A DNA stretch of 64,000 bases. Origin: an uncultured Carboxylicivirga sp. (GTDB lineage Bacteria; Bacteroidota; Bacteroidia; Bacteroidales; Marinilabiliaceae). The notes under the pieces are model-generated. The model saw only the letters and a program-made list of their open reading frames with translations. It did not search any database and had not been told where the DNA came from. A program made the position numbers and the translations under genes. The stretch is from positions 620,001 to 684,000 of the forward strand of contig CANNEA010000001.1 in assembly GCA_947503525.1 (NCBI GenBank), written 5' to 3'. This document shows positions 3,640 to 39,341 of this stretch, in pieces. Every line of letters begins with the position of its first letter. The first letter of the stretch is position 1.

Positions 3640-3984
3640 CCTCAATTATGACCAGATTGTAGATGTAACAGGCATATAATCAATTGGATATTTTAACGTC
3701 TTGTGAAATTTTTTATCGTACATAATCTAAATTGGGTTGTTTGTGTAAAATAATTGATGATTGGTCATTTATAGTTGAGAACTAATAGTGCATTCCTTAA
3801 ATTACTTTTTCCTAGAGTATTAGAGTGAGTGGTTACCTTGGTTTTATAAAAGCAATATGTTATTAATTGTCTTTTGTGAATCATATTGTTTCAGACAAAG
3901 TGATGTATTTGTGTTGGTATGTGACAGGTATCGCCTAAAGGCGGGATCTGGGAATCAGAATAAATTGCCTAAAATTGTGATAAA
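3640..3984. other. Intergenic region, no gene found
   Basis: 345 A/T-rich bases between the DUF3179 gene and the AraC gene, with stops in all frames. The only structure seen is a short stem-loop CGCC-TAAA-GGCG at 3932-3943, about 40 bases before the AraC start, which may lie in the leader mRNA. No clear TAnnTTTG box was identified. Confidence 0.5.
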
Positions 3985-4893: not shown

Positions 4894-4899
4894 TTTTTT

Positions 4900-6832: not shown

Positions 6833-6994
6833 TTAAGTAAATATTACGATTTACACAAATGTACCTTCAAAAGCTGAATAATAAAAGGAAAGAAAAAAAT
6901 GAACAAAAAGTTTAATGATTTTGTAAGGAGATTAATCAAAGTTCGTCAAAGCAATTAGAAACTCAAAAAATGTTGTATTAAATATTAAATTATT

Positions 6995-7585
6995 ATGAAA
7001 GCAAATCGATTAAATATTTGGTTAAAAAGCATATTAGCTGTACTGGCTGTTTTTGCTCTTGTATCTTTCTCAGGATGTTCTAAAGATACAGAGATGGAAG
7101 ATGATATGATGACTATGGATGAAACGGATCCACCTAAAAATGGAGATGGAAGTGGCGGCTCATCAAGTTATACCGATGCTCCAGACTTTAACCTCAAAGA
7201 TTTAAATGGCAATGATGTGAAGAAATCAGATTTTGATGGTAAAGTATTGGTGATGTTCTTTTTTGGGAATTCATGTCCATCATGCCGGGCTGCTGGGCCA
7301 AGCATTCAATCAAAAATTGCCACTGCCTTTGGAACAAATGCAGAATTTACCATTATTGGTTTAGATCAATGGGATGGTAACCAAGCTTCGGTTCAATCTT
7401 TCAAATCAAATAGTGGGGTTAATTTCCCATTGCTGTTAAAGGCAGCAACAACCGCATCAGCTTATGGCTCAACATACGACCGTTTGGTTGTGGTGGATAA
7501 GGAAGGTAAAATTCGATTTAACGGTACACGTAATGCTTCAAAAGATGTAGATGATGTGGCTACTGTAGTGACTTCATTACTTTAA
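6995..7585 (+). CDS. TlpA/ResA-like thioredoxin-fold lipoprotein
   Basis: 196 residues. A lipoprotein signal peptide ends at Cys28 (lipobox FSGC). An acidic/Gly-Ser-rich linker (about 30-58) leads into an AhpC-TSA/Redoxin domain with DAPDFNLKDLNGNDVKKSDF and the active site C94-P-S-C97. The linker fits tethering the domain to a membrane. It should act as an extracytoplasmic thiol reductase or peroxidase-like protein. The CPSC dipeptide is unusual for TlpA proteins, which more often have CxPC. First of a three-gene operon (10-base gap to the next gene). Confidence 0.85.
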   Translation: MKANRLNIWLKSILAVLAVFALVSFSGCSKDTEMEDDMMTMDETDPPKNGDGSGGSSSYTDAPDFNLKDLNGNDVKKSDFDGKVLVMFFFGNSCPSCRAAGPSIQSKIATAFGTNAEFTIIGLDQWDGNQASVQSFKSNSGVNFPLLLKAATTASAYGSTYDRLVVVDKEGKIRFNGTRNASKDVDDVATVVTSLL

Positions 7586-7595
7586 TCCTAACTAT

Positions 7596-8075
7596 ATGAG
7601 AACCATACTTAGCCTAGTACTTGTTTTAATGACTTATTCATCGATACAAGCTCAAACGGTACGCACTTTTGTACTGGATAATTTGGAAGGTGAAACTATA
7701 GCCTATGAAGATTTAAAGGGGGCCCAAATAACTGTAATTGATTTTTGGGCATCATGGTGTAAGCCATGTATGAAAGGCATGCCAAAATTAGAAAAGATTT
7801 ACCAGCAATATAAAAATCAAGGGGTCAATGTTATTAGTGTCAATACTGATGGCCCAAGAAGTATTTCGAAGGTTTTACCCTTATCTAGAGCTTTGGAATT
7901 AAGTTATCCAATAGTATCGGATATTAATAATGATGTGATGCAGGATATGGAAGTGACACAATTACCTACTTTGTTGATAGTGAATAAAAATGATGAAGTA
8001 GTATATCGACATGAGGGATTTAGTGATGGTGATGAGTTGGAAATAGAGGAGGAGATAGTTAAGAACTTAAAATAG
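7596..8075 (+). CDS. TlpA-family thiol:disulfide protein
   Basis: 159 residues with a cleavable signal peptide (about 1-20, ending SIQAQ). The thioredoxin fold carries the classical motif FWASWCKPCMKGMP (C55 and C58) and a cis-Pro segment TQLPTLLIVNKND. It is predicted to be a soluble periplasmic reductant related to TlpA/ResA. It sits between a CPSC lipoprotein and an outer-membrane barrel with 5-10 base gaps, so the three products probably form one export or redox system. The substrate is unknown. Confidence 0.88.
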   Translation: MRTILSLVLVLMTYSSIQAQTVRTFVLDNLEGETIAYEDLKGAQITVIDFWASWCKPCMKGMPKLEKIYQQYKNQGVNVISVNTDGPRSISKVLPLSRALELSYPIVSDINNDVMQDMEVTQLPTLLIVNKNDEVVYRHEGFSDGDELEIEEEIVKNLK

Positions 8076-11503: not shown

Positions 11504-13150
11504 ATGAAGAGAAGAAATTTTATACGCAATATAGGAGCTGCAACTGCCGGAGGATATGCTTTAGCTGGTATTCCCTTAAAAGCTATGACAGCCAATTCGC
11601 CATTGGCACAGGCTGCTTTAAATGCCGACAATGACAATGTATTGATTTTTGTGCAGTTGCATGGAGGTAACGATGGCTTAAATACTTTGGTGCCTATTGG
11701 GCAATACAATGAATATTACAACGCCCGAGCTAATATTGCCATACCCGATCATGGAACACGTAGTTATATTAATGTGGATGAAAGCATTCCTGAAAGTCGT
11801 CAGGTTGGATTGCATCCTGATATGATTCATTTCAAGCAATTGTATGAACAAGATAAAGCCGTTGTGATTCAAAATGTGGGTTATCCGCAAATGAATGGAT
11901 CTCACTTTAGAGGTCGTGATTTGGTTTTTATGGGTCTGGATGGTACCGAGGATAATGAAAATGTAGCCTCAGGTTGGATGGGACGTTTTCTGGATATGGA
12001 ATATCCGAATTACCCTGATGCCTATCCAAGTGATTCGATGAAGGACCCAGTTGCCATAGAAATGGGAAGTGCTATGTCAATTGCTTTTCATCGCGAAAAA
12101 GGAATTCCAATAGGATTAAATGTGCAGAGTCCATCGGCTTTTTATGATTTGATAAATGGTGTTGGTGTAGATGATGCAAGTTTTTATAAACCTGATGGTT
12201 ATGCTGGTGATGAATTGGAATATCTGTGGCAGTTCGAAGGCATGTCGAATGTTTACGCCGATCGCTTAAAAGATGTTTATGATACAGGAAACAATTCAAG
12301 TATTGAATACCCAGAAGAATATCCTGCCCCGACACCTTCTCGATATAAGAAGAATCCACTATCAGGCCAGTTGCGTTTAATTGCCCGCTTGTTAAAGGGA
12401 GGCATTAAAACGCGCATTTTTATGTGTCGCATGGGTGGATTTGATACGCATGGTAATCAGGTGGAGGAGTATGATTCAACCCTGGGTACTCATGCCGCTT
12501 TAATGTACCATTTGTCTTCGGCCATTAAAGCCTTTCAGGATGATTTGGCGGGTTTGGGATTAGAGGAAAAAGTACTGACCATGACCTTTACAGAGTTTGG
12601 ACGTCGTGTACATTCCAACAACAGTTATGGCACTGATCATGGTTCATCCACACCTGTATTTATTTTTGGTAAAACAGTAAGTGGCAAGGTGGTTGGTGAT
12701 AATCCCGACCTTCAGGATTTGGTGGGCGGCAATATGAAATATCAAGTGGATTATCGTCAGGTATATACTTCTGTGCTGCAAGACTGGTTTGGTGCCAGCG
12801 ATGAAGCATTGGCAATTGCACGTTTCGACAAGTTTAAGGATACCAAAATTAATATTTTTGGAACTGATATAGGGATAGAAGAACTATATGCAGGTAAGGT
12901 ACAAGCAACCGCTTTTCCTAATCCGGCCTCTTCAAATTTAACTATCCAGTTTAATATGCTCATGCCGGGTGATGCTCTGGTTTCCATTTTTGATGTATAT
13001 GGAAAGATGGTATATCGCAGAAGTATCAATGGATTGTATTATGGTTTTCACAAGCACAATATTAATGTAAGTGGATTGCCACAAGGTCAATATTTATTTT
13101 CTGTAAAAACCGGGCAATATGTTGAAAGTGGCAAGGTAATAGTGAAATAA
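11504..13150 (+). CDS. DUF1501 protein with T9SS C-terminal sorting domain
   Basis: 548 residues. The N-terminus MKRRNFIRNIGAATAGGYAL has a twin-arginine-like export signal. The DUF1501 domain (sulfatase/alkaline-phosphatase-like fold) is seen in VQLHGGNDGLNTLVPIG, GFDTHGNQVEEYD and MTFTEFGRRVHSNNSYGTDHG, whose His/Asp residues suggest metal binding. The last about 75 residues (PNPASSNLTIQF...GKMVYRR...GLPQGQYLFSV...GKVIVK) form a type IX secretion sorting domain of type A. The protein should therefore cross the outer membrane and be surface-attached or released. It forms an operon with the DUF1800 gene. Confidence 0.93.
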   Translation: MKRRNFIRNIGAATAGGYALAGIPLKAMTANSPLAQAALNADNDNVLIFVQLHGGNDGLNTLVPIGQYNEYYNARANIAIPDHGTRSYINVDESIPESRQVGLHPDMIHFKQLYEQDKAVVIQNVGYPQMNGSHFRGRDLVFMGLDGTEDNENVASGWMGRFLDMEYPNYPDAYPSDSMKDPVAIEMGSAMSIAFHREKGIPIGLNVQSPSAFYDLINGVGVDDASFYKPDGYAGDELEYLWQFEGMSNVYADRLKDVYDTGNNSSIEYPEEYPAPTPSRYKKNPLSGQLRLIARLLKGGIKTRIFMCRMGGFDTHGNQVEEYDSTLGTHAALMYHLSSAIKAFQDDLAGLGLEEKVLTMTFTEFGRRVHSNNSYGTDHGSSTPVFIFGKTVSGKVVGDNPDLQDLVGGNMKYQVDYRQVYTSVLQDWFGASDEALAIARFDKFKDTKINIFGTDIGIEELYAGKVQATAFPNPASSNLTIQFNMLMPGDALVSIFDVYGKMVYRRSINGLYYGFHKHNINVSGLPQGQYLFSVKTGQYVESGKVIVK

Positions 13151-13173
13151 GAAACTACCCTAAATAAAGACAA

Positions 13174-13207
13174 AATGCCTCCTGTGATAAGGGGGCATTG
13201 TTGTTTT
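13174..13207 (+). terminator. Terminator after the DUF1800/DUF1501 operon
   Basis: A 9-bp stem AATGCCTCC/GGGGGCATT (one T-G pair) with an 8-base loop, followed by GTTGTTTT. It lies 24 bases after the stop codon. Confidence 0.75.
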
Positions 13208-13608
13208 AGGATAATTCCATTTATCAAGATTATTTATAATAAGCATTTTTAAAGATCTAAAGTAAGCCATTTATAAACTGCTGTTACACATACAATAAAA
13301 AAAACAGCTTAATAAAAGTATTCCAAAGTCAATAGAATAAAGGTGATTGAATTATTTGTAAACTAACTCAGATAAAACAAATGTGTTACGTTTTGTAGTT
13401 TTGCTTATTAACAATAAGAATAATTGCTATTTTAGCTAATGCTATGTAATATAAGTTAAATACCCGCATAGTGTTGATTAAGTTTGACTGTAGAAGTTAT
13501 TTTGAAAGATGGTATGCGTCCAAAGGATACAGAGCAATATTGGTTCATAGCTTAAGTTCAGCCAATTGTGATGCCATATTGGTCAAAAGATTATAAAAAC
13601 TATCATAA
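13208..13608. other. Intergenic region, nothing recognised
   Basis: About 400 A/T-rich bases. A 41-codon frame from a GTG at 13471 to a stop at 13596 exists but has no supporting features. No clear promoter box or repeat was found. Confidence 0.5.
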
Positions 13609-13920
13609 ATGCTAAAATTAAAACGATCCACTTATGCAACATGGTCATTTAGACTCTTAATCTATTTGATTGTAATAAACATTGCTTCTTTTTTCATAGT
13701 TGTTAATTATGACAAATTTCTTACAAACACTGATGAAATTCTTCGTATAGGACGGATTCTTGGTATCATTGGAAATGTATTTTTTGCTGTTGGTTTAATT
13801 TGTACTGTAATTAGTATTGTTAAAAAGGAGAAACGGAATTATCTCTACTTCGTTTCAATTATTGTTTATCCAATAATATTGCTGCTTTTCTTAATAAATA
13901 AAATTCAATATAGTTTATAA
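13609..13920 (+). CDS. Small membrane protein, unknown
   Basis: 103 residues with three hydrophobic segments (about 14-33, 47-68 and 78-96) separated by short charged stretches (KKEKRNY at about 71-77). No family is recognised. The stop codon is immediately followed by the ATG of the VF530-family gene, so the two are co-transcribed and probably translationally coupled. The start is supported only by the clean helix pattern and the coupling. Confidence 0.6.
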   Translation: MLKLKRSTYATWSFRLLIYLIVINIASFFIVVNYDKFLTNTDEILRIGRILGIIGNVFFAVGLICTVISIVKKEKRNYLYFVSIIVYPIILLLFLINKIQYSL

Positions 13921-14160
13921 ATGAACGACTCAAATAAACCAACAAATCAACAGCCTAACAATCCATTACATGGTGTAAAGTTGGCTGATATACTAGAACG
14001 ATTAGTAAAAGAATTAGGATGGGAAGAGTTAGGTGCAAGAATAGATATCCGATGTTTTAACAATGATCCATCAATAAAATCGAGCCTTAAGTTTTTGCGT
14101 CGTACACCATGGGCCAGGGAAAAAGTGGAGCAGCTGTATTTAAAGGTGATTAAGGCCTGA
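13921..14160 (+). CDS. VF530 family protein (DUF2132)
   Basis: 79 residues. The segment [20 protein letters not shown], then [20 protein letters not shown] and [18 protein letters not shown], is the complete VF530/DUF2132 domain. It is a small helical fold known from a Vibrio fischeri structure and suggested to bind DNA; function is not settled. It abuts the small membrane-protein gene with no gap. Confidence 0.9.
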
Positions 14161-14246
14161 TAGATTAACCAGAGTATTCAAATCAATAAGAAATATACCT
14201 TAGTTAAGGACGAGGAATAAATAAAAATCTACAAGCAGAATTAATT

Positions 14247-16154
14247 ATGACCAGACAAGAACACCTGGAATTTTGTAAAAAATGTAAGAAACGTAAAAGT
14301 GATATAAAACAAGGATTGCTTTGTGGAATCACTGGAATGAAAGCTGATTTTGAAGAGACTTGTGAAAATTATGAGCATGATCCATATGTTCAGGAATCTA
14401 CATTCGAAAGTGAAGAAACAGGTAATCAATTAGGAGTAGGTAAGATCGACGCCGAAACATTTAACCTATTCAGATCTCACCAAGACTTTTATTATGCCAT
14501 TGTTGGTGGCCTTTTGGCCAGTTTAATTAGCGGTGTAATTTGGGCAGCTGTTACCGTTAGTACCGGATATCAGATTGGGTATATGGCCATTGGAGTTGGA
14601 CTTATCGTTGGATATGCCGTTCAGTTTTTTGGAGCTGGAATAGATCAGAAATTTGGTTTTTTGGGTGCCTTTTTATCAGTATTCGGATGCTTGCTGGGTA
14701 ACTTGTTTAGTCAGGTTGGCTTTTATGCTCAGGATGCATCTTTAGGATATCTTGAAGTATTATCATATTTGAGCTTCCCTTTAATTATTGAAATCTTAAT
14801 CGAATCTTTCTCCCCAATTGATATACTATTTTATGGTATTGCAATTTATGAAGGTTACAAGTTAGCATTTCGGAAAATTTCAATGCTTGAAATAAGTGAA
14901 ATTCAAAATCCAGAATTTGATGCATCTCCTTCAAATTCTAATCTACGTATGCCTTTGGTTGTGGTTTCGATTTTCGCCATTGGGTTTTTTATGTATAAAG
15001 TGCAAAAAGGAGTTAGCGGTTTTAAAACTTACCAATATGAGTCCGGTAAAACGATGTCAGAAGGAGAATTAGTCAATAGTAAGGAAGAAGGAAAATGGAC
15101 TTTTTGGTATGAAAATGGGAACAAACAGGTGGATGCTCATTTTACTGAAGGCATCCCTGATAGCTTATGGCAATGGTACAACGAATCTGGTAACATGATA
15201 AAAAAAGGTCATTATAAAAATGGTCTTGAACATGGAGTTTGGATCAATTATTATGAGAATGGACAGCAACAAGACTCTGGACTTTATCAGAGTGGAAGGA
15301 TGAATGGCTTTTGGAAGTTTTGGTATGAAGATGGTCAACTTCTACAGGAGGGTACTTATAAAAGAAATGCACAGGACGGTAACTGGAAAATTTTTCATGA
15401 GAATGGTAACTTATCTAACGAAGGGCTTATGAAAGAAGGTGTCATGTCAGGTTTGTGGAATAATTATTACGACAATGGCAAACTGGAAAGTGTACTGATT
15501 CATAAGTCAGCTGAGAAGTTGATTGTACAAGATACCTGGGATTTGAATGGCAAACAGCTTGTTAAGGATGGAAATGGAGCCTTTAAATCGTATAGTAAAT
15601 CTGGTCAGTTGTTGGTTACAGGTGAAATAAAAGATGGATCACGAATTGGAGAGTGGGTAACTTATTTTGAGGATGGCAAAATAAAGGAAAAAGGGCTTTA
15701 TGAAAATGATCTTTATAAGGTTATAGATGTTTGGGCGTCTAATGGCGATGCAATTGTTACAGATGGAAACGGAATGTACAAATCATATTACCTCGATAGT
15801 GAAAATGTGATGGAATCGGGTAAGATAGTTGATGGTTTGCGTGAAGGTAAGTGGGAGCTATATTATGAAAGTACTCAAACTTTGTTTCAGGATAATATTT
15901 ATTTGAAAGGTAAACAAACTGGTGTATCGAATTCCTATTTTGAATCAGGCCAATTGTATGTGAGTGGCCAATTGAAAGATAATAAGAGGGACGGTGAATG
16001 GAATTGGTATTATGAGAGCGGTCTTATTTCATCTTCAGTTTCATTTATTGACGATAAGAAAGATGGTAAGCAAACCATGTGGAGCGAGATGGGAGATGTA
16101 ACAAAAGAGGAGTATTATAAAAATGGGGAATTAATTGAGGAGAAGGTCTTTTAG
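14247..16154 (+). CDS. Membrane protein with MORN/YwqK-type repeats
   Basis: 635 residues. Residues 1-46 hold a Bacteroidota zinc-ribbon-like motif (HLEFCKKCKKRK...GLLCGITGMKADFEETCENYE). Three to four membrane helices (about 80-200) and another near 230-250 follow. From about 265 to the end is a chain of roughly a dozen repeats of the type W.x.YYENGQ.x.G.Y..G...G.W, the YwqK/MORN-like repeat. Such repeats form an elongated beta surface; in databases they are often labelled YwqK family antitoxin, but there is no toxin gene nearby and no evidence for that role. It probably binds a partner at the membrane. Confidence 0.8.
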   Translation: MTRQEHLEFCKKCKKRKSDIKQGLLCGITGMKADFEETCENYEHDPYVQESTFESEETGNQLGVGKIDAETFNLFRSHQDFYYAIVGGLLASLISGVIWAAVTVSTGYQIGYMAIGVGLIVGYAVQFFGAGIDQKFGFLGAFLSVFGCLLGNLFSQVGFYAQDASLGYLEVLSYLSFPLIIEILIESFSPIDILFYGIAIYEGYKLAFRKISMLEISEIQNPEFDASPSNSNLRMPLVVVSIFAIGFFMYKVQKGVSGFKTYQYESGKTMSEGELVNSKEEGKWTFWYENGNKQVDAHFTEGIPDSLWQWYNESGNMIKKGHYKNGLEHGVWINYYENGQQQDSGLYQSGRMNGFWKFWYEDGQLLQEGTYKRNAQDGNWKIFHENGNLSNEGLMKEGVMSGLWNNYYDNGKLESVLIHKSAEKLIVQDTWDLNGKQLVKDGNGAFKSYSKSGQLLVTGEIKDGSRIGEWVTYFEDGKIKEKGLYENDLYKVIDVWASNGDAIVTDGNGMYKSYYLDSENVMESGKIVDGLREGKWELYYESTQTLFQDNIYLKGKQTGVSNSYFESGQLYVSGQLKDNKRDGEWNWYYESGLISSSVSFIDDKKDGKQTMWSEMGDVTKEEYYKNGELIEEKVF

Positions 16155-16381
16155 CTATTAGTATTGAAGTTGGCTCATAAAGATAGAACTAACTTTATTA
16201 AGGATGCTAAGTGCATAAAATCAGTTGATTTCTATTGCTGTCAGTAGTGCCTTTAAGTTTTTTAAGGAATAAAACTTGGAAGTATCCATATTTTATTGGG
16301 ATATTTATATGATCAGAATTAAGTTCTGAAGTACCAGAGGTAATCTCGTTGAAGTAGAAAGATCATCTAAAGAAAATAGTC
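16155..16381. other. Upstream part of a 583-base gap, no gene found
   Basis: This is the first part of the long gap before the tricorn protease gene. No frame with coding character and no clear promoter motif was seen here. The rest of the gap holds a small lysine-rich gene, its terminator and a candidate -7 box. Confidence 0.4.
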
Positions 16382-16486
16382 ATGGGAAAAGGTCAAGACG
16401 CAAAGAAAAACGTAAAAAAAGAGCCGCTAAAAACAGCGAAGGAAAAAAGAGCTGAAAAGAGATTAAAGAAAGCAAAGAAAGAATAA
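16382..16486 (+). CDS. 34-residue lysine-rich small protein
   Basis: The ATG at 16382 opens a frame beginning MGKGQDAKKNVKKEPLKTAK and ending AEKRLKKAKKE. About 40% of residues are Lys/Arg, there is a Glu in most short windows, and no hydrophobic core, so it is likely disordered or nucleic-acid bound. It resembles small conserved proteins of the pattern GKGxDxKKxxKKEPxKTxKEK seen in several bacterial phyla (recollection, not a search). A strong terminator 25 bases downstream supports a separate transcript. Confidence 0.65.
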   Translation: MGKGQDAKKNVKKEPLKTAKEKRAEKRLKKAKKE

Positions 16487-16510
16487 TTAATTAAGTATTA
16501 AACGGATATT

Positions 16511-16558
16511 AACAACGCTCGGTGCCTTTCAGTATGGTATTGAGCGTTGTTTTTGTTT
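16511..16558 (+). terminator. Strong intrinsic terminator after the small gene
   Basis: Arms AACAACGCTC (16511-16520) and GAGCGTTGTT (16542-16551) pair perfectly, extended inward by six weaker pairs, and run into TTTTTGTTT. Confidence 0.88.
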
Positions 16559-16695
16559 AATATAATTGTCGAAACGACTTCATGCCATAATTTGATTAAA
16601 GTTTGATTTGATAGATGTGGAAAAGCATTAATCCATCCAGCGCCTGATAATTCATGCTTCTTGACCTCCAATTATAATTTTGTTACATTGTGTCG

Positions 16696-16703
16696 TACTT
16701 TTG
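16696..16703 (+). promoter_or_regulatory. Candidate -7 box for the tricorn protease gene
   Basis: TACTTTTG matches TAnnTTTG and lies 34 bases before the start codon. No well-spaced TTTG -33 element was found, so the call rests on one box. Confidence 0.5.
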
Positions 16704-16737
16704 AAATTATACACAATTATTTAAACCTCATACTACT

Positions 16738-19700
16738 ATGATAAACTTCTTATCCCGGTCATCAAGATGGATGACTTTAGGCGTAATAGTAAGTCTTATT
16801 TCTCTTTCTTTTATTTCGACTGCGCAGGGCACACGCTTACTTCGTCAGCCCAATATTAGCGATAATCATATTGTTTTTACCTACGGTGCTGATTTATGGA
16901 TAAGTGTTAAAAGCGGCGGTAATGCAATACGCTTAACAAGTACTGCAGCTGTAGAAAAAGATCCTTATTTTTCACCGGATGGTCAAACCATTGCATTTAC
17001 CTCTAATCGTTCTGGTACTGATGAAGTCTATACCATGTCAGTTAATGGTGGAGATGTTAAACGTCTAACCTGGTATCCGGCCAGTTCGCAGGTGCGCGGA
17101 TGGACACCTGATGGAAAACGAATTTTATATGCATCAACGCGTGAAACAGCACCCTCACGTTTCGATCGACTTTGGACAGTCAGTAAGGATGGCGGGCCAT
17201 CAGAAATGTTAACTCATCAATGGGGAACAAAGGCTTCCTATTCTAAAGATTCTAAATATATTGCAGTGGATAAAATTCGTCGCTGGGATTGGGAATGGAG
17301 AGCTTATCGTGGTGGTCAGAATACTCCATTAATTATCCTAAACCTTGAAGATTGGAGTGAAGAATTATTACCCAATGAACGCACAACGGATGTTCAACCG
17401 GTTTGGTTAGGAGATAAGGTGTTTTTTATTTCTGATCGCAGTTGGGTAAGTAATATTTGGGCCTACTCTACGGATTCAAAGGAATTAGAACAATTAACTA
17501 CTTTTGAAAACACAGATATAAAATACCTGTCGGGTTATAAAAATGAGTTGGTATTTGAACAGGATGGTTATTTACACATCTATAATATCAGTGAGAAGTC
17601 AACGGTTAAACTGAATATAAATGTTGTTGGCGATTTTCCTTGGGCTGAAATGCAATGGGAAGATGTAAGTGGCAATGTCAATTATGCAACGCTTTCACCA
17701 AGTGGTAAACGAGCAATAATGGCTGCGCGTGGCGAAGTATTTACGGTCCCTGTTGAACACGGGAATGTGCGTAATATCACCAATAATTCATCTGCAGCAA
17801 ATCGCAAAGCAATCTGGTCTCCAAAAGGAGATAAGATAGCCTGGTTCTCCGATGCTAATGGTCAATATGACTTGATATTAACATCTCAGGACGGACTTGA
17901 TAAACAAGAGACTATTTCATTAGGTGAGTCAAAAATGATATGGGAGCCAACATGGTCACCCGATAGTAAATATATTGCCTTCTGTGATGATGATGTGCGC
18001 GTGAGAGTTTTGGATGTTGAAGCCAGGACTATTAAAACAGTGGATGTTGGTGGTAATAATCTGGAAAGAGGTGATTTAGGTATCACATGGTCAACTGATT
18101 CAAAACATCTGGCTTATGCCAAATCAGGAGCAAATCATTTCCGTAGAATTCATATTTGGTCGAGCGCTGATAATAGCGTGAAGCCGGTGACGAACTCAAT
18201 GGCCGATGCTTTTTCCCCGGCTTGGGATAGGGATGGAAAGCATTTATACTTTTTGGCAAGTACTGATTTGGCCTTGCGTTCGAGTTATGTCAATACCAGT
18301 GTGATGTCACCTGAGTCGCCAAGCTATAGTGCTTATGTTATTAATCTTCGTAAGGAGGACAAATCACCGTTTGAATTAAGAAGTGACGAGGAAGAAGTAA
18401 AGAAAGACGATCCTAAGAAGGAAAATAAGGCTGATGATAAAAAGAAGTCGAAGAAGGAGAAAGGAGATAAAGACGATGGTAAAGAGGATAAAGAAGAAGA
18501 AAAGAAGGAAATGACTATCGTCATTGACTTTGAGAATATCGAGCGACGTATTATAGCAATGCCAATGCCTAAAAAATCTTACCAATATACTATAGCTGGT
18601 CCTAAGGGCACGGTGTTCATAAGCGAGTCGAAAGAAAAAGGCAATACCATCCATAAGTTTATTCTTGAAAAACGTGAAGCAAAAGAATTTGTGAGTGGAG
18701 CACGTTCAGTTTCTGTCTCAGCTGATGGAAAGCAGATGTTAGCCAGAATGGGTGTATCGTGGAAAGTAATGGCTACATCTAAACCCAATGGGAAGGATGG
18801 TAAAACGCTTAAGTTAAGCCTTAAAACCAACCTGGATCGTTATCAGGAATGGGAACAAATGTTTAACGAGGCCTGGCGTTACCAGCGCGATCTGTTTTAC
18901 GATCCGAATATGCACGGGCGCGATTGGAATGAGGTTTACCAACGTTATTCGCCTTTGGTTCCTTACATCAAACACCGTAGCGATTTAAATTATGTATTAG
19001 ACATGATGAACGGTGAGTTATCCGTTGGTCATAGTTTTGTATTTGGTGGCGATATGCCGAAAGTAGAAAAGGCTTCGGTAGGAATGTTGGGAGCTAATCT
19101 GGTAGCTGATGCATCTTATTGGAAAATAGAACGCATATTCACAACTGAGAGTTGGAACCCTGGCATGTCAAGCCCATTGGAACGTCCTGGATTAAAGGTG
19201 AAAGAAGGCAATTATCTGGTTGGGATTAATGGTCAAGAACTTAAGGCAGCTCAGGATCCATATGAAGCTTTAGACGGAACAAGAGGCGTACAAACTGTTC
19301 TTCATATCAATGACAAAGCAAGCTTTGATGGAAACTGGAAAATTACTGTTAAGCCAATTTCAAGCGAAGGAGCTTTACGTCAACGAACATGGGTTGAAGA
19401 TAACCGCCGTTTGGTTGATGAATTATCAGGAGGTAAGTTGGCCTATATTTGGGTTCCGAATACCTCTAGTCAGGGCTTTGTGTCCTTTAATCGTTATTAT
19501 TTTGCTCAGCAAGATAAAGAGGGAGCTGTTATTGACGAGCGCTTTAATGGAGGAGGTTTATTGGATGACTATATGGTTGACCTGATGAAACGCGATCTAA
19601 GAGCGGCTTTAACCAATGAAGTGCCCAATGGCGCTCCAATTCTTTTACCTGCCGGTATAAAAGGACCAAAAGTATTATTGATTAATGAAATGGCCGGTTC

Positions 19701-31732: not shown

Positions 31733-31799
31733 TTGGCTTGCATCCTAGTAGTAAATGATTCTCAAAACCAAAACTGATCTCACGATGCAAGCAAGCCAA
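31733..31799 (+). promoter_or_regulatory. Inverted repeat around the SusC-like gene start
   Basis: TTGGCTTGCATC (31733-31744) pairs with 31784-31799 (GATGCAAG, a 4-base bulge, then CCAA). The stem would enclose the ATG at 31755 in its loop and bury the ATG at 31785. It may control translation. Confidence 0.4.
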
Positions 31800-32264
31800 A
31801 TCCGAAAATTATTCACTTTAATTTATTATTGTTTACTTAATATTCCTCTTCTATATTCTCAAACTGAACATATTCAGGTTAGAGGCACTATGACGGATAG
31901 CCATGGAATGGCCATACCCGGAGTAAGCGTTTATATTGAAGGAACAACTCAAGGAACCATATGCGATGTAAATGGTAATTATTCCATTGAGGCCCCTTTA
32001 GGCTCAACATTGGTATTTAGTTTTGTTGGTATGAAAACCAGAAAGGCCATTGTAACTCTCACCGGTCTTAATCCACTTGGTAGTCGACAAATTATTCCTT
32101 ACAATACTCACCAGGAAGATAGTCGATTTGGAAGGACTGAGGAGGTAAAAGAACTTATGGATTCTTTGGAATATGATCAAAGAATGAAAAAGTATAAAAA
32201 ATACCTTGCCGACTCTTTAGTCTTAAATAATTACCGTATAACCACTGAAAATGCGTCAGAGTAA
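31755..32264 (+). CDS. N-terminal part of an interrupted SusC-like protein
   Basis: 169 residues from ATG 31755 (an in-frame ATG at 31785 gives a tighter signal peptide). The signal peptide ends near LLYSQ. It is followed by a carboxypeptidase-regulatory-like (CarboxypepD_reg) domain, about residues 40-110 (RGTMTDSHGMAIPGVSVYIE, then GNYSIEAPLGSTLVFSFVGM), as at the start of SusC/RagA receptors. Instead of a TonB plug comes a charged helical linker (KELMDSLEYDQRMKKYKKYL). Translation stops at TAA 32262-32264, but the same frame stays open to 34649, where the barrel is encoded. Best read as the first piece of one gene broken by a nonsense codon. Confidence 0.7.
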   Translation: MILKTKTDLTMQASQIRKLFTLIYYCLLNIPLLYSQTEHIQVRGTMTDSHGMAIPGVSVYIEGTTQGTICDVNGNYSIEAPLGSTLVFSFVGMKTRKAIVTLTGLNPLGSRQIIPYNTHQEDSRFGRTEEVKELMDSLEYDQRMKKYKKYLADSLVLNNYRITTENASE

Positions 32265-32339
32265 AATGCCTATAAAAAAAGAAGTTTAAGGCGATATATC
32301 GAACCTGAAAAGAGTCGTTTATTTGAATTAGGACAAATA

Positions 32340-34649
32340 GTGGTTGAAACGAATTTTTCGTGGGAAACACTTGGTAGAAGTCCTGAATTGCAAACAACTT
32401 ATGCCCAGGGGAGGCCGTTAAACGGTTCTTTAACTTATCAAGGACCGGAGACCGGAGAAATCTTTTCATGGGGGCCACCAATAAGGAATTTGGAGTATGA
32501 TGGAGTTAGCAACTCCAATGACAGAAACGGAGCAATAGTCTCCAAAGGAATGGGCAGCGGTCAGATGGCTAATTCATATAAACCGAAATCCTTTTATCAA
32601 ACCGGATTCACTCGATCTTTTGGTATAACAAGCTATCAAACCATTATGGGTGCAAAAGTAGATTTGTCATTCCACAATCAAAAAGGATCGGGTATAATTC
32701 CCAAACAAGACAATTCGAGTAACAGCTTGAGAATAAAACTTAATATGCCAAAATGGATCAAAGCAACTGCAAGTTATAGTCATCGAAGGAATGGTTTTAA
32801 TAATGGTTTGTTACAATCCCGTCTTTTGGCAGCCTCTTATTTAACGCCAATAAATTTTGATAATACCTATGGATTATCTTCCTGTGATGCACAAAAGAAT
32901 ACAGAAAGTATTTATCATCCTGATGGTTCATTACGAAGTGCTTCGCCAGGAGCTATGGATAATCCCTATTATCTAGTTCAGAAAGCCGAAAACTCTAATG
33001 TTGCAAAAGCATTCCTATACCAGCTTAGTTTTAAGGAGGATTGGAATACGGGATCTATTATTGCAGATGTTTCTGGTGAAAACTATACAAATGATCGTTC
33101 TTTATTTTTTTCAGAGGGTACTGTTGGTATGGAAATGTCTAAGTATAATTTCCGAAAGGAAAATATGAATAGTGTATTTATTGGCGCCATTGTTGAAAAC
33201 CGATTGTTCAGATATAATTTCCGATTTAGTTCGCCTTTAAGAACTGAGATTTATAACTACGAACGTAGTCTCGAAATTGATAATCGATCAATTGAACATA
33301 CAAACAGAAAGCGACACGTGTTTACTCTTAATCCACATCTTATTTACAATGCTAATAATGATCTGTATTATGTGAAGGCGGGTTTAAATGTTTATAGTTC
33401 ATCAACCAGTGATAAAAACTATTTTCAACCCAATTTTGGGGCCTATATTCATCCCTTCCGTATGTTGGACAATTGGTTTTATTCCAGTACTCAAAATGTA
33501 TTTAATGAGTTTAAAATACAATACGACTATGTAACGCAAGTGAATGAATACAGCCTAAATCCCTTTGTGGGCCTGTCAAATTCTTTAAAGTACAATGTAG
33601 CTGATTTCAACAATTATTTTGAGGAAGATGAGATTAGTATTTCAGACGGTATCTTGCCTGAACTTGTTACAAAACATGATTTTTCGATTAGGCTTAACTT
33701 CTTATATGGTGTCATACAATCCGAAACATCCTTTTATACACAAACACGTAAAAATAGTCTGTTTCCAATATTTGAAGATGATACTTTATTCTTTAAAAAT
33801 GTTGGTAAAATTAAGGCTAAGGGCTGGGAAGAGTCTTTGTTTGTGAGGATAATGAATAATTCATTACGATGGAATGCAAAGTTGAGTCTGTCACAATATA
33901 AGGCTCAAGTTGTCTCGTTGAATAAGAGTCAGACTGTTCCTGTTGCTGGTTTCAAAGATGTTTATACGGCATTGCAAGAAAATCATTCTCCAGGCGTTAT
34001 CATGGGTAATTCTTATCAGCGAAATGCAGATGGTGATATGCTTATTGGAAATGATGGGTTTCCATTACTTAATTCTACACCGTTAGTGTTGGGAGATCCC
34101 AATCCCACTATGTTAATTGGATTAAGTAATACTTTTCAGCTTAAAGGGATGGAACTAGGGTTTACCTTGGATGCTGTATTGGGCGGAGACAATTGGAATG
34201 GTACTCAGGCAACATTAGATTACTATGGCACTTCGGTGCATACTGAAAGTCAACGTAATGTGCGTAATTACATTTTTGATGGTGTAAAAGAAGATGGATC
34301 GGTTAATAATATACCTGTTCATTTTGCACCTGATGATGGCAGTGTATTTGACTATAGGTGGGTAAGGTATGGCAAAGGTGGAGTTGCCGAAGATTACATC
34401 GAAGATGGATCGCGTTTGGTGCTAAAAGAATTGTATTTGAGCTATAATTTTAATACGCAAATCTTACGTTCCTGGGGACTTGAAAAGTTGTCAGTCTCCA
34501 TCGTCGCTAACAATCTGATAACAGTTTCAAACTACCGAGGTAATCTGGCATCTAACACCCTTTGGGGGCATTCCAATACTCTCGGATTGGATTATTTTAA
34601 TGCTCCTCAGATCAGGAGATATGGTGCCTCTCTTAAACTTACCTTTTAA
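32340..34649 (+). pseudogene. SusC/RagA-type barrel, plugless, cut off by in-frame stop
   Basis: About 770 codons in the same frame as the piece ending at 32264; the frame is open from 32265, and 32340 is only a GTG. There is no signal peptide, so this part could reach the outer membrane only if fused to the upstream piece. It matches the SusC barrel: LGRSPELQTTYAQG, SWGPPIRNLEYDG, KSFYQTGFTRSFG, then VLGDPNPTMLIGLSNTFQL and the terminal strand RRYGASLKLTF. The plug domain that should precede it is absent; a SusC-type plug instead lies inside the macroglobulin encoded 27 bases downstream. Confidence 0.7.
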
Positions 34650-34676
34650 GCATCTAACCCTTTTAATTCAAATAAC

Positions 34677-37600
34677 ATGATAACACGTAAATATATTCCC
34701 TTAGTTGTAAGCATATTGGCCTTAATTGTATTTTCAGCATTTGCATCATCCGATGATTTATTTGTAGCATATTTCAAAAAGAAGATAAACGAATACAATC
34801 TTTATTATCCATCCGAAAAAGCCTATTTACATACGGATAAAACGTTTTACAAGCCTGGTGATGATATTTGGATAAGTGCTTATTTACTTGATGGAATAAG
34901 TCATATGTCATCGACAAAAAGCAATGTGATATACATCGAATTATGCGATCCTAAGGGTTCGGTTGTTAAAAAACAAATGTTTAAGATAAAGAATGGAAAT
35001 GGGAAGGCCCATTACAAGTTAGCAAATGAAGCTCCTGGCGGTTTGTATAAGCTAAGAGCCTATACCAAATGGATGCAGAACTTTGGGAATAAGATGATTT
35101 TTGAGAAGGACTTGCAAGTGCAAAAGATTATCAAGCCTAAAATACTTTCAGTTCTCGATTTTGAAAAGGAAGCCTATGGTGCATCAGACACCGTTATGGC
35201 TAGATTGTCCTTACGCGATTTAAGCAATGCGCCAATTCGAAACAGAAGATTAAAATATGTGGTACGATTAAAAGGTAAGGTCTTCTTAAGAGGTACTTCC
35301 GAAACAAATGATAAGGGGGAATCGAGTATTCAATTTACCTTACCAAATAAATTAAACTCAGCTGATGGTGTATTAAATGTGATGTTTGATTACAAAGGCT
35401 ATAATGAATCAATATCGGGAGCTATTCCAATAGTTCTAAATAAGATTGATCTCCAGTTTTTTCCAGAGGGAGGTGATGCCATTGAAAATATGTCTGCCAA
35501 AATGGCCTTCAAGGCATTGAATGAATTTGGAAAGCCTGCTGATGTAGAAGGTGAAATATATAATAGTAAGGGCCACATGGTTTCTCGTTTCAAGAGTTTT
35601 CATCAAGGAATGGGAGCCTTTATATTTACGCCACTTTCAAATCAGGCTTATACTGCTAAAATATTAAAACCATCAGGTATTGGTCGTTTGTATAAATTAC
35701 CACAGGCAAAGGCCGAAGGCTGTGTGCTTCATTTAAAGCATAGTGATAATAAGGGATACCATTTTAGGATCCAGTCTAATGTTAATGAGAAGGTGCATAT
35801 AGTTGTTCACCTAAGAGGAAAAATGTTGTTTGCAAATACGATTCAACTTCAAGAAGGTATGGTCGAACAAACAATTGACATCAGTGAAAAGGGATTGAGT
35901 GGAATAGCGCAAATTACCATCTTTGATGATTTTGAAAGGCCAATGGCTGAACGATTATTTTACATATTTCCAGAGAATAAGCTAAATATTGAAATTAAAA
36001 CCGATAAGTCAAGTTACACAACTCGTGAGAAGGTACAAATGACCCTTCAGGTTAATGATGCGGAAGGCGAGCCGGTTGAAGGTAGCTTTTCCATAGCGGT
36101 TGTGGATGATAAGATTATAACATATGCTGATGATAAACAAGATAATATTTTATCAAGTCTGATGCTTTCTTCCGATATCAAAGGGAAGGTCTATGAGCCA
36201 TCATTTTATTTTGACCCTGAAGAAGAAAAGGCAAAAGAAGCTTTGGATTATTTATTGCTGACTCAGGGCTGGCGTCGTTTTGTATGGAATGATATACTGC
36301 AAATGACCAAAAAAGCAATGAAACAGGCTGAGCGTTATGATATGGTGGTTGGGCAGATAACAAATAATTTTGGAGAGGGTGTGAAAGCTCGTGTTATTGT
36401 TGTAGATAATGAGCATAAAAAGTATGCCAAACTCACCACAAATGAAGGAGGTCGTTTTGCAGTCTCAAACCTAAATGATTTTAAATATTTACAGGTTTAT
36501 GCCAAGTCATTGGACCGGAAAAATAAAAATGTTCGGATAAATATTAGTCAGGCCTCACGTAACACAAGTAGCAATATTTATGGCTCTGCTGTAAGTTTTG
36601 GAACGGTACAAGTGGATCCTGTTATAGCTGAAACGCGAGAGGTAAACAACTCAATTGCCCTTGAATTGGAAGATTCTGATGGTTCTCAAACGCTTCCGGA
36701 AACTAAGAAAGAATATGCTACTTCGGCAGTATGGGCAATGGAAGATGACGCTGTAGCCTTGGATGAAGTGGTTACAATTGGCTATGGTGTTCAAAAAAAG
36801 TCAGAAATGACTGGATCAATAGTTAGAGTGCAGGCTCAAGAACTCCAGGGTATCAATTCAGAAGTGAACTATGCACTCCAAGGTCAGGTAGCTGGAGTCC
36901 AGGTTATTAATAGTAGCGGATCTCCAGGTTCAAATTCAAGTGTTTTGATACGAGGTACAGCTTCCGTGTCTGTTAATAATACACCGCTTTATATTGTTGA
37001 CGGTATTCCGATTAGTGATTTAAGTCCGTTGAATGCTGGGAATATAGAAAGTGTTAATGTTCTTAAGAGTGCGGCATCAACAGCAATTTACGGATCAAGA
37101 GCAGCCAACGGTGTTATCGTTATAACAACAAAAAAGGGTAAGTATGGGCAGTATTCAAGAAGTAGAAAATATGCCAAAAAACTAAAGCAAACTCATTTGT
37201 ATAATTCGTTTACCTTTGGTCCTGTTAAGCAATTTTACATTCCTCCCTACGGGAATAAGCATATAGTAACAGATAGTATTGACCAAAGAGAAACCATTTA
37301 TTGGAACCCGACAATTGTTACTGATAAATATGGTAAGGCGAATATTCAATTTTATAATTCTGATGAATTGACGACATTTCGAACAATTGTTGAAGGTGTT
37401 GGCAATAACGGATTAGTCGGTAGGGCAGAAGCTTTTCATAATACCATCAAACCCTTGCATATTGAGACAAAAATCCCTCCTTATCTGGTATTTGAAGATG
37501 TATTGGAACTTCCGGTTTTAATCACAAATAATACAGAACAATTGATTGTAGGGAATCTTAACATAGACCTACCAAAATCATGGCATATAATTAACCAGGT

Positions 37601-39341
37601 ACCTTCTCAGCTTAGCATCGAATCCAATAGCTTTAAGGAAGTAATTCTTAAACTTAAGGTTGGTAAAGCTATCGGTGAGAAGAAGATTAATATGTACTTT
37701 GGAAATGATGTTCACACTGCTGAAAATGTCAGCCTTTCTCAGGTGGTAAGTAAAGGTTTTCCTGCTGAAATGTCCTATTCAGCAAGAGCCAAATCAACCA
37801 CGTTTAGTTTTGATCTATCCAATACTATAAAAGAGAGTGAAACCATGAGTATATCCATATACAACGATGTATTATCTGAAGTTATGGATGGTATAGAGTC
37901 TGTAATTCGTGAGCCTTATGGTTGCTTTGAACAGGCAAGTGCTTCAACTTATCCCAACGTTTTAATCCTAAAATACCTTCAGGAAAATGGACTTGTTAAT
38001 CCTGAACTAAAGACTAAAACACTAGGCTATATAGAAAAGGGTTATAAGAAATTAGCCGCATACGAAACCAAAAATAATGGTTTTGAGTGGTTTGGTCATA
38101 CACCTCCACATGAAGGATTAAGCGCTTTTGGATTGATGGAATTTAATGACATGAAAAAAGTATATCCAGGTGTGAACGAGGAGATGATTAAACGAACAAT
38201 AGATTGGTTGTTAAGTCGAAAAGATGGGAAAGGTGGGTTTAAAACCAATAAGGGTAAATATGGATTTTCTGGAGCTTCGGATGAAGTGACAAATGCCTAT
38301 CTTATTTATGCCTTTTCAGAGCTTGGTATTCCGTTTGATCAGTTTAAAATGGAATATGAATCCACCTGGAAAAAAGCCTTTAAAAGTAAAGATGCTTATC
38401 GTCTAGCTTTAATGGCAAATGCAGCAATTAATGTAAATGATAGTATAAGGGGTGCAATGGCTTTAACATGGTTGACGAATAAAGTGGCTAAATCTGGAAT
38501 AAATAAATTACATGCTGATCATTCAATAGTTCGTTCTTATGGTAAGTCACTGAAAGTTGAAGTGGCTGCCTTATCAGCTATGGCAATTATAAAAAATGGG
38601 GATGAGCATTTTACAGAGTTGTTGACTCTGATGGACTATATTCTTGGGGCACGTAGTTTTGGAGGTTTTGGTTCAACTCAAGCAACTATTCTATCATTAA
38701 AGGCCATAACCCAATATGCATCTCTTGTTAATAAAATGCCGGAAAGTGGTACAGCAATTCTAAAGATTAATGGTCATGAAGTGTTAAAGCGACAGATAAA
38801 AAACAATGACAAATTAATGCTATTAGATAGCCTGGAGCAATATTTTGGTTTTGGAATCCAAACTTTTGAATTGGCATTTGAAGGAATGAGAAACCCACTT
38901 TCATTTACGGCTAATGCCAAATGGAAACAAGCATTACCGGCTTCATCAGAGAATTGTAAACTTAGAATACAAACTCAATTAATGAAGGATTCGTGTGAAG
39001 TTAATGAGCTTGTTAGACTTTCTACACGGATTATTAATAAATCAGCAAACGGATTGCCGATGACAATAGCTATGGTAGGTTTACCTTCAGGGCTTTCGGT
39101 TCAGCCATGGCAACTCAAGAAAATGCAGGATGAACATGTTTTTGATTATTACGAAATTCATAAAAACTATGTCGTCTTTTATTACAAAGAACTAGAACCT
39201 AATGCACGGGAAACCATTAATTTGGATTTAAAAGCAGAAGTTACTGGTGAATTTTCTGCGCCACCAAGTTGTACATACCTTTATTATACCAAAGAATTTA
39301 AAGATTGGCATAAGGGCGGAGGTATTGTTATTAGCAGATAA
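34677..39341 (+). CDS. Alpha-2-macroglobulin with internal TonB plug domain
   Basis: 1554 residues. Signal peptide about 1-24. MG2-like domain from about 46 (EKAYLHTDKTFYKPGDDIW), further MG domains to about 540, and the Bacteroidota motif LDYLLLTQGWRRFVW. A complete SusC-type plug spans about 692-823: LDEVVTIGYGVQKKSEMTGS, VLIRGTASV, PLYIVDGIPI and AIYGSRAANGVIVITTKKG. The A2M core follows (RETIYWNPTIVTDKYGKA, about 866 on). The thioester motif is GCFEQ with C1083 and Q1086, inside an all-alpha thioester domain (about 1060-1380), then a receptor-like C-terminus. Family role: trapping proteases via a bait region and thioester. The inserted plug and the plugless barrel upstream suggest it docks in an outer-membrane channel (inference). 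Confidence 0.9.
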   Translation: MITRKYIPLVVSILALIVFSAFASSDDLFVAYFKKKINEYNLYYPSEKAYLHTDKTFYKPGDDIWISAYLLDGISHMSSTKSNVIYIELCDPKGSVVKKQMFKIKNGNGKAHYKLANEAPGGLYKLRAYTKWMQNFGNKMIFEKDLQVQKIIKPKILSVLDFEKEAYGASDTVMARLSLRDLSNAPIRNRRLKYVVRLKGKVFLRGTSETNDKGESSIQFTLPNKLNSADGVLNVMFDYKGYNESISGAIPIVLNKIDLQFFPEGGDAIENMSAKMAFKALNEFGKPADVEGEIYNSKGHMVSRFKSFHQGMGAFIFTPLSNQAYTAKILKPSGIGRLYKLPQAKAEGCVLHLKHSDNKGYHFRIQSNVNEKVHIVVHLRGKMLFANTIQLQEGMVEQTIDISEKGLSGIAQITIFDDFERPMAERLFYIFPENKLNIEIKTDKSSYTTREKVQMTLQVNDAEGEPVEGSFSIAVVDDKIITYADDKQDNILSSLMLSSDIKGKVYEPSFYFDPEEEKAKEALDYLLLTQGWRRFVWNDILQMTKKAMKQAERYDMVVGQITNNFGEGVKARVIVVDNEHKKYAKLTTNEGGRFAVSNLNDFKYLQVYAKSLDRKNKNVRINISQASRNTSSNIYGSAVSFGTVQVDPVIAETREVNNSIALELEDSDGSQTLPETKKEYATSAVWAMEDDAVALDEVVTIGYGVQKKSEMTGSIVRVQAQELQGINSEVNYALQGQVAGVQVINSSGSPGSNSSVLIRGTASVSVNNTPLYIVDGIPISDLSPLNAGNIESVNVLKSAASTAIYGSRAANGVIVITTKKGKYGQYSRSRKYAKKLKQTHLYNSFTFGPVKQFYIPPYGNKHIVTDSIDQRETIYWNPTIVTDKYGKANIQFYNSDELTTFRTIVEGVGNNGLVGRAEAFHNTIKPLHIETKIPPYLVFEDVLELPVLITNNTEQLIVGNLNIDLPKSWHIINQVPSQLSIESNSFKEVILKLKVGKAIGEKKINMYFGNDVHTAENVSLSQVVSKGFPAEMSYSARAKSTTFSFDLSNTIKESETMSISIYNDVLSEVMDGIESVIREPYGCFEQASASTYPNVLILKYLQENGLVNPELKTKTLGYIEKGYKKLAAYETKNNGFEWFGHTPPHEGLSAFGLMEFNDMKKVYPGVNEEMIKRTIDWLLSRKDGKGGFKTNKGKYGFSGASDEVTNAYLIYAFSELGIPFDQFKMEYESTWKKAFKSKDAYRLALMANAAINVNDSIRGAMALTWLTNKVAKSGINKLHADHSIVRSYGKSLKVEVAALSAMAIIKNGDEHFTELLTLMDYILGARSFGGFGSTQATILSLKAITQYASLVNKMPESGTAILKINGHEVLKRQIKNNDKLMLLDSLEQYFGFGIQTFELAFEGMRNPLSFTANAKWKQALPASSENCKLRIQTQLMKDSCEVNELVRLSTRIINKSANGLPMTIAMVGLPSGLSVQPWQLKKMQDEHVFDYYEIHKNYVVFYYKELEPNARETINLDLKAEVTGEFSAPPSCTYLYYTKEFKDWHKGGGIVISR

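Follow-up and report, generated by a model that had tools for sequence, protein, structure and literature searches.

Results

Genes and domains at the locus

The window, a 64,000-nucleotide stretch from an uncultured Carboxylicivirga sp., carries on its forward strand a barrel gene of SusC type that is interrupted by a stop codon, followed by a macroglobulin gene. The features are:

31755..32264, + strand: ORF1, 169 aa, with a signal peptide, the SusC N-terminal extension and the start of a linker, ending at an in-frame TAA
31878-32066, + strand: CarbopepD_reg_2 domain in ORF1 (Pfam PF13715, E 2.5e-14)
32262-32264, + strand: in-frame TAA that splits the barrel gene; the match from the genome search likewise contains one TAA
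32265..34649, + strand: ORF2, an open frame of 794 aa in the same reading frame as ORF1, a SusC-type barrel lacking both Ton box and plug
34677..39341, + strand: thioester alpha-2-macroglobulin of 1554 aa that contains a SusC Ton box and plug as an insert (Pfam, TIGR04056 and alignment)
34818..35069, + strand: MG2 domain, residues 48-131 (Pfam PF01835, E 4.5e-16)
36735..37157, + strand: SusC-type plug region, residues 687-827, between the MG-type domains and MG7, the place of the bait region in macroglobulins
36762..36782, + strand: Ton-box-like motif DEVVTIG, residues 696-702, read from sequence in a stretch modelled as disordered
37293..37547, + strand: A2M (MG7) domain, residues 873-957 (Pfam PF00207, E 5e-9)
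37851..38717, + strand: thioester domain (TED), residues 1059-1347 (Pfam PF07678, E 1e-25)
37920-37934, + strand: GCFEQ thioester motif, within the TED
39060..39263, + strand: receptor-binding (MG8-like) domain, residues 1462-1529 (Pfam PF07677, E 7.1e-6)

A single SusC/RagA profile, TIGR04056, is partitioned over these three frames: positions 1-62 fall in ORF1, positions 70-212 on macroglobulin residues 687-827 (E 5.3e-56) and positions 212-981 in ORF2 (E 1.4e-33). A second HMM, made from 15 SusCs encoded in this genome, gives a like division: positions 4-86 fall in ORF1, positions 95-236 on the macroglobulin, and ORF2 matches just the later part, 548-1010. The Pfam Plug model matches macroglobulin residues 708-813 (E 1.8e-16). 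The original prediction placed a complete SusC-type plug at about residues 692-823, between the MG domains and the A2M core, close to where we find it, and it gave the gap between the two genes correctly as 27 bases.

It also described the upstream gene as a CarboxypepD_reg domain plus a barrel without a plug. This description fits the family, in which the gene is uninterrupted and encodes 958-999 aa in all seven of the other full-length loci found first, but the window does not hold it as one open frame. We recognised no signal peptide in the ORF2 frame (32265-34649), and the first start listed for it is GTG, at 32340; the signal peptides of ORF1 and of the macroglobulin were identified by eye. 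Because the barrel gene is split by a stop, this strain may have lost a working system.

The predicted identity of the downstream gene, a thioester alpha-2-macroglobulin with GCFEQ, is borne out by its domains and motif. MG2, A2M and A2M_recep all score over the Pfam cut-offs, and GCFEQ is identical in all eight rows of alignment A1 and present in 80/80 macroglobulin loci, one of the two search patterns demanding GCFE. The bait-region model A2M_BRD matches weakly (E 0.028), and in the structure model the bait-region position is occupied by the plug and disordered linkers. By eye, we saw no lipobox in the window macroglobulin, and hence no ECAM-like inner-membrane lipoprotein anchor; among the scored relatives the motif matched once, doubtfully, in L068. 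We considered and rejected the idea that a lipid anchor and the plug are alternative anchors, as neither the plug-bearing nor the plugless set contains a convincing lipobox.

The Ton-box-like motif DEVVTIG can be set beside the Ton box of Bt1763, given as DEVVVTG (PMC7782687). At the aligned place a glutamate occurs in 39/42 sequences and is followed by V, I, L or A in 42/42, and a Ton-box-like motif stands there in 41/42. A wider motif counts 43/44, against chance rates of 187/880 and 180/880, and is permissive, at about one chance match per five stretches; a narrower motif on shorter cuts counts 29/46. A complete SusC plug with Ton box is thus present in the pair, and the barrel is of SusC type, but no one chain of the pair combines N-terminal extension, Ton box, plug and barrel as in SusC/RagA receptors.

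Pairing of plug and plugless barrel across genomes

We searched with the macroglobulin core, plug excluded, and analysed the best 80 of the 343 loci recovered. Complete plugs occur in 44 of these 80. The original prediction that a plug-bearing macroglobulin has a plugless barrel beside it held in this sample: such a barrel adjoins 43 of the 44, the one miss lying at a contig end, and none of the 36 plugless macroglobulins (0/27 counting those with full upstream flank). That the paired barrels carry no plug of their own was likewise confirmed, Pfam Plug being found in 42/42 macroglobulin segments scanned and in 0/43 paired barrels; Pfam's TonB barrel model matches just three of these 43. The arrangement recurs in the 43 collection loci and in G002 and G054, at identities down to 38%, and the barrels are kept as long open frames in several families. 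The persistence of this gene pair among distant Bacteroidota relatives suggests that the trap also acts as the gate of the channel.

Some plugless relatives hold plug remnants alone, in L078 by HMM and in L074 and L093 by eye (the by-eye comparison covered 33 of the 36 plugless loci, those with the GWR anchor). The plug site of L054, a macroglobulin from this family, is occupied by a TonB C-terminal domain (E 4.7e-20), so the site can take other parts of the TonB system.

Of the 227 neighbouring genes listed for plug loci and the 162 for plugless loci, the scan covered 102, all from plug loci. No SusD family is among the 25 listed of the 98 neighbour families, and classical SusCD import is therefore not indicated. 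Nor did a third operon gene emerge, the commonest neighbour families reaching 5/102.

Other macroglobulins were compared in two sets. Besides the plug-bearing macroglobulin, the window genome encodes a longer one that has no plug (L173, 1822 aa, GCIEQ). In the 14 stretches with such long macroglobulins (1666-2027 aa), comprising 13 of 15 weaker search matches and the one from the window's own genome, we found neither a plug nor a plugless barrel. The second set holds 18 short MG2 proteins from 17 stretches (L174-L190), eight of which contain a SusC-type plug piece; beside them, no plugless barrel was recognised in the 17 stretches. One stretch, L187, breaks off within a SusC frame some 6 kb away, with the start of that frame out of view.

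Evolutionary tests

Plug and barrel are jointly present or absent in 73/73 tree rows scorable for both, and on the core tree, with incomplete loci left out, each changes once and both change together. Fisher's p of 9.5e-19 consequently overstates the association, which on this phylogeny represents about one evolutionary event and not repeated co-gains; the independent-pairs test found only one pair and has no power. We detected no covariation of plug and barrel beyond shared ancestry (partial Mantel test conditioned on the macroglobulin core: r 0.05, p 0.25, 45 pairs). A simple motif for a conserved 'lock' glutamate gave barrel matches too scattered for use. Alignment A5 comprised 41 of the 43 relatives plus the window, the near-copies L071 and L108 being left out. 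As to the origin of the plug, both plug and barrel have L148 as their closest SusC when judged by mean path; support for the plug tree is weak, however, and L148 was picked for its near barrel.

Structure models

The AF2 model of the L048 barrel orthologue (mean pLDDT 84.4) is a confident barrel that resembles SusC barrels, which are also its best structural matches. It begins with an N-terminal helix (2-26). The original prediction had a helical linker in the place of the plug; the linker between N-terminal extension and barrel in this model does contain some helix, but at low confidence and not as a defined helical domain. In an isolated macroglobulin segment, the plug is modelled with pLDDT of about 45-71, a moderate confidence, and the Ton-box stretch falls under 30. 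The best structural match of the plug is a SusC plug, at 2.3 A over 111 residues; the VIA and Foldseek match lists consist mostly of whole receptors or complement proteins, and we give no weight to absence from them.

Discussion

In textbooks, TonB-dependent receptors are gates made of a single chain. In this pair, part of the gate appears to have moved, naturally and lastingly, to a second protein that belongs to the complement/macroglobulin trap family and resembles the human macroglobulins that trap proteases. We consider it likely that the pair forms one TonB-dependent receptor of two subunits, in which a periplasmic thioester macroglobulin plugs the barrel in trans. In the barrel subunit, a flexible linker would connect the N-terminal extension of SusC to a SusC barrel with nothing inside it; the macroglobulin subunit would be a secreted, periplasmic protein whose bait region has given way to a Ton box and a plug attached by flexible linkers. 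From the periplasmic side, the macroglobulin's plug would seal the barrel, and a seated plug would tether the macroglobulin under the pore. The original proposal adds that the macroglobulin could be displaced or exposed on trapping a protease. Plugging in trans, as originally proposed, is well supported by comparative genomics, through the conserved pairing and the plugless barrels; the covariation test was negative, and the association amounts to about one event.

In this receptor, TonB would pull on the macroglobulin-borne Ton box and so open the gate. Since the plug sits at the place where macroglobulins sense proteolysis, either gate opening or cutting of the linkers by an incoming protease would trigger the macroglobulin, and the triggered thioester would then capture whatever passes or threatens the pore. 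More tentatively, and with lower probability, the pair may be a natural TonB-gated macroglobulin, a thioester trap with the pore gate as its bait: proton motive force, acting via TonB and the Ton box, or an incoming protease would pull the plug and so arm a complement-like trap immediately beneath the pore.

Other explanations must be weighed against the two-subunit receptor. The barrel could be an exporter or display device, and the plug a docking tag that holds the macroglobulin at the cell surface, in a two-partner system that is no import gate. The dedicated one-to-one pairing and the missing SusD among the listed neighbour families would suit such a system, as would the report that Oar, a TonB-dependent transporter, is needed for secretion of the PopC protease in Myxococcus (PMC6434023, PMC11658791). 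None of our results points to export, however, and a Ton-box-like motif has been retained. Moreover, both plug ends face the periplasm in known receptors, a geometry that would keep both halves of the macroglobulin inside; we regard the export reading as unlikely.

Slightly less probable still is that the plug stays out of the barrel next door and acts as an adaptor, for instance to TonB; the barrel would then serve another partner or be a relic of gene fission. The lack of covariation, the TonB domain at the plug site of L054 and the interrupted window barrel are all compatible with an adaptor. Against it stand the co-presence of plug and barrel in every scorable tree row, albeit through a single joint change, and the plugless relatives in which nothing but a plug remnant is left. 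Long barrel frames also persist in several families, and a pore left unplugged should harm the cell; the plug deletion of the T9SS channel offers a comparison (PMC12611786). The stop codon in the window might further suggest a frameshifted or misassembled SusC that lies by chance beside an unrelated macroglobulin. For the family, such an artefact is refuted by sequence comparison and is extremely improbable: the E-values and the conservation of the arrangement, across the 43 loci, G002 and G054, exclude chance, and the barrel gene is intact in the seven relatives read first.

If the two-subunit receptor is real, nature would provide a case of plug and barrel made as separate proteins, and plug exit, the unsolved step of TonB-dependent transport, could be followed with ordinary assays of binding and release. 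Bacterial macroglobulins have a poorly understood role; they would gain a definite place and a trigger, at the periplasmic mouth of an outer-membrane pore. A limited literature search, which may miss spelling variants, found no description of a plug-bearing macroglobulin with a plugless barrel.

The pair shares recognisable parts with several known systems. All the elements described for the SusC/RagA receptor Bt1763 (PMC7782687), namely N-terminal extension, Ton box, plug and barrel, have homologues in it; Ton box and plug, however, sit on the second protein, and a low-confidence linker connects the barrel to its N-terminal extension. With type I alpha-2-macroglobulins such as ECAM and Salmonella A2M, as these are described (PMC5764988, PMC3328433), the window protein has in common the MG domains, MG7, a thioester domain with CxEQ, the receptor-binding domain and secretion, and it differs in having a TonB receptor plug at the bait position and no visible lipobox. 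Type I genes are reported often to adjoin PBP1c (PMC5764988), whereas the plug-bearing family adjoins a barrel gene. The short MG2 proteins of Bacteroidota (792-1392 aa) have MG domains of the same family, but at most about the first 60 positions of the macroglobulin core, and their plug pieces cover the later plug part only (HMM from 129-184 on), without the Ton box region. The plug and barrel of FhuA or FepA, made as separate polypeptides, reportedly work together; these are laboratory constructs, in which the gene was not split by nature and the plug chain has no other role. The T9SS translocon SprA with its Plug is likewise a Bacteroidota outer-membrane channel closed by a separate protein, although to our knowledge it is unrelated to TonB plugs and involves no macroglobulin or Ton box. 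Deletion of that plug is reported to open the T9SS channel (PMC12611786).

Results

A SusC receptor is divided among three consecutive + strand frames, which share one reading frame.

Frames carrying the parts of the receptor
31755-32264, +, ORF1: 169 aa; CarbopepD_reg_2 by Pfam
32265-34649, +, barrel frame: open over 794 aa, with a GTG at 32340 as the first start listed; no Pfam match
34677-39341, +, macroglobulin: 1554 aa; Pfam MG2, Plug, A2M, TED and A2M_recep

TIGR04056, the NCBIfam SusC/RagA model of 981 positions, matches ORF1 with positions 1-62, macroglobulin residues 687-827 with positions 70-212 (E 5.3e-56) and the barrel frame with positions 212-981 (E 1.4e-33). Our own SusC HMM, built from 15 SusCs of the window's genome (1010 positions), places 4-86 in ORF1, 95-236 in the macroglobulin and the later part only, 548-1010, in the barrel. 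Given this clean split, the part of SusC that is missing from the barrel is the part found on the macroglobulin, and the original prediction of a complete SusC-type plug on the macroglobulin and none in the barrel stands. The SusC-type part of the macroglobulin also contains a Ton-box-like DEVVTIG.

The upstream gene had been described as a single gene, which is true of the relatives but not of the window, where an in-frame TAA (32262-32264) splits it within the linker and a signal peptide is not recognisable in the barrel frame downstream. Among 60 genomes searched for the macroglobulin, the window's own included, seven others encode full-length homologs, five at 58-62% identity and two at 46% and 39%; the barrel gene upstream is one frame of 958-999 aa in all seven. 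Because these frames are uninterrupted, the stop in the window's copy reflects a recent loss, an error in sequencing or a split of an unusual kind. No second barrel of this kind was found in the window's genome with the barrel profile at E 1e-50.

We searched a genome collection (84,980 species as described) with an alignment of the macroglobulin core only (A3, residues 870-1554); this query contains no plug, so plug and barrel were free to occur or not. Of 343 loci recovered, the best 80 were analysed, and in these our SusC HMM found a complete plug in 44 macroglobulins but not in the other 36. The expectation that a plugless SusC-like gene always adjoins the plug-bearing form held in 43 of 44 such loci, the single exception (L083) lying on a contig that starts inside the gene. 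Beside plugless macroglobulins among the same best 80 loci, this barrel was found at none of the 36; of these, 27 keep the whole N terminus plus 3 kb upstream, and 21 have 3 kb on either side. The paired barrels do not carry plugs of their own (Pfam Plug 0/43, CarbopepD_reg_2 43/43), and Pfam Plug is present in 42/42 macroglobulin segments, two near-copies left out. The barrel lies upstream in 41 pairs and downstream in two (L102, L123), with stop-to-stop frames spaced by -121 to 266 bases. Five of the 43 pairs were taken as repeats of relatives from the 60-genome search; with the window, G002 and G054, this yields 46 distinct pairs. No further conserved neighbour was found (the top Pfam families match 5 of 102 neighbours scanned, with 227 listed), and no SusD family is among the 25 listed of 98 neighbour families.

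In alignment with DEVVTIG, glutamate occupies the corresponding position in 39 of 42 macroglobulin segments, the next residue is V, I, L or A in all 42, and 41 fit a loose Ton-box motif. An unaligned scan finds a Ton-box motif in 43/44 macroglobulins versus 187/880 random and 180/880 shuffled stretches; an earlier scan with a narrower motif and shorter cuts gave 29/46.

A same-family macroglobulin (L054:1-4635, +), on a contig that starts inside the gene, holds TonB_C (residues 732-809, Pfam, E 4.7e-20) after a CarbopepD_reg domain, at the position that the plug takes in others. Three macroglobulins counted as plugless have apparent plug remnants at this position: in L078:574-5076 (+) an HMM recognises a SusC extension, a Ton box and one half of the plug, and in L074:1203-5867 and L093:7175-12058 (+) the remnants are seen by eye only. 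L074 and L078 have <1.3 kb upstream; in L093 the flanks are complete and a barrel is absent. Next to the plugless macroglobulin of L093 is a second MG2 protein, a long one (12358-18381, +, 2008 aa), in which Plug is complete (E 1.8e-12) and CarbopepD_reg_2, A2M and bMG10 also occur, and a plugless barrel was not recognised in this locus. At L158 (G269; 2879-5203 and 5270-8038, +), the paired barrel has no N-terminal extension match, and a 775-aa frame just upstream of it has another SusC-type plug (residues 170-305).

Across 395 evenly sampled Bacteroidota genomes, the core gave five strong matches (E < 1e-100), window counted. In four (window, G285, G080, G269) the plug is accompanied by a plugless barrel; the fifth, G192, has neither. 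The barrel profile matched 31/395 genomes at E 1e-50; of 12 examined, those same four have plugless, paired barrels and eight have ordinary SusCs with their own plug. The ordinary SusCs nearest the plugless barrels (L148-L155, 246-437 bits with our barrel HMM) hold N-terminal extension, plug and barrel on one chain, and 8/8 have an adjacent same-strand frame of 440-502 aa, possibly a SusD.

Neither plug nor plugless barrel was found in the fetched stretches of fourteen longer macroglobulins (1666-2027 aa). The one from the window's genome (L173:7564-13029, -, contig C7) is a plugless thioester protein of 1822 aa with GCIEQ, and its 790-aa neighbour (5265-7634, -) may be penicillin-binding protein 1C, the usual neighbour. 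Among 18 shorter MG2 proteins of the window's relatives (L174-L190, 17 stretches), eight have the later plug part only, without the Ton box region, and ten have none; a plugless barrel was not recognised in these stretches, one of which, L187, has at its end a truncated SusC frame with its start unseen. The paired form is patchy, occurring in 4/14 genomes of the window's genus, window included.

Discussion

Plug and barrel are associated among the best 80 of 343 loci (Fisher's p = 9.5e-19), a value that overstates independence, because on a tree of 83 macroglobulin cores, with incomplete-flank loci left out (73 rows), each changes just once, and together. With all 83 rows, the plug label needs three changes. 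To judge from these sequences, the argument for the pairing is its long persistence rather than repeated independent events. It spans Marinilabiliaceae, several Cytophagales families and Flavobacteriaceae and persists where the gene order has changed. In a comparison with 25 ordinary SusCs, all 46 plugless barrels group in a single clade, and barrel distances track those of the macroglobulin cores (r 0.91).

A barrel without closure would be an open hole, and the missing plug and Ton box sit on the only conserved partner found, the macroglobulin. This protein appears to be secreted, with no visible lipid anchor, and probably plugs the barrel from the periplasm, tethered beneath it, where TonB could act on its Ton box. 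Plug removal, or cutting of the plug linkers, may be coupled to the macroglobulin's trap, a second step that we consider less likely than not. With the core taken out, plug and barrel showed no extra covariation in 45 pairs (r 0.05, p 0.25); as a test of docking this came out negative, and its power is low given a 140-residue domain and that number of pairs.

We found no paper on this pairing, with most subscription papers outside our reach, and, in the papers searched, no joint occurrence of SusC and alpha-2-macroglobulin as whole words, a search that misses other spellings. The word macroglobulin is absent from the main text of a 2025 article in Nature on how Bacteroidota assemble their outer membrane. 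Literature coverage was thus limited, so absence of a description is no proof of novelty. The components are those of SusC/RagA receptors, whose one-chain definition does not fit the pair, and of type I macroglobulins. Conceptually, the closest precedent comes from the type IX translocon, which has a separate Plug protein; this protein is not known to be related to TonB plugs. In one report, loss of that protein opens the translocon channel (PMC12611786).
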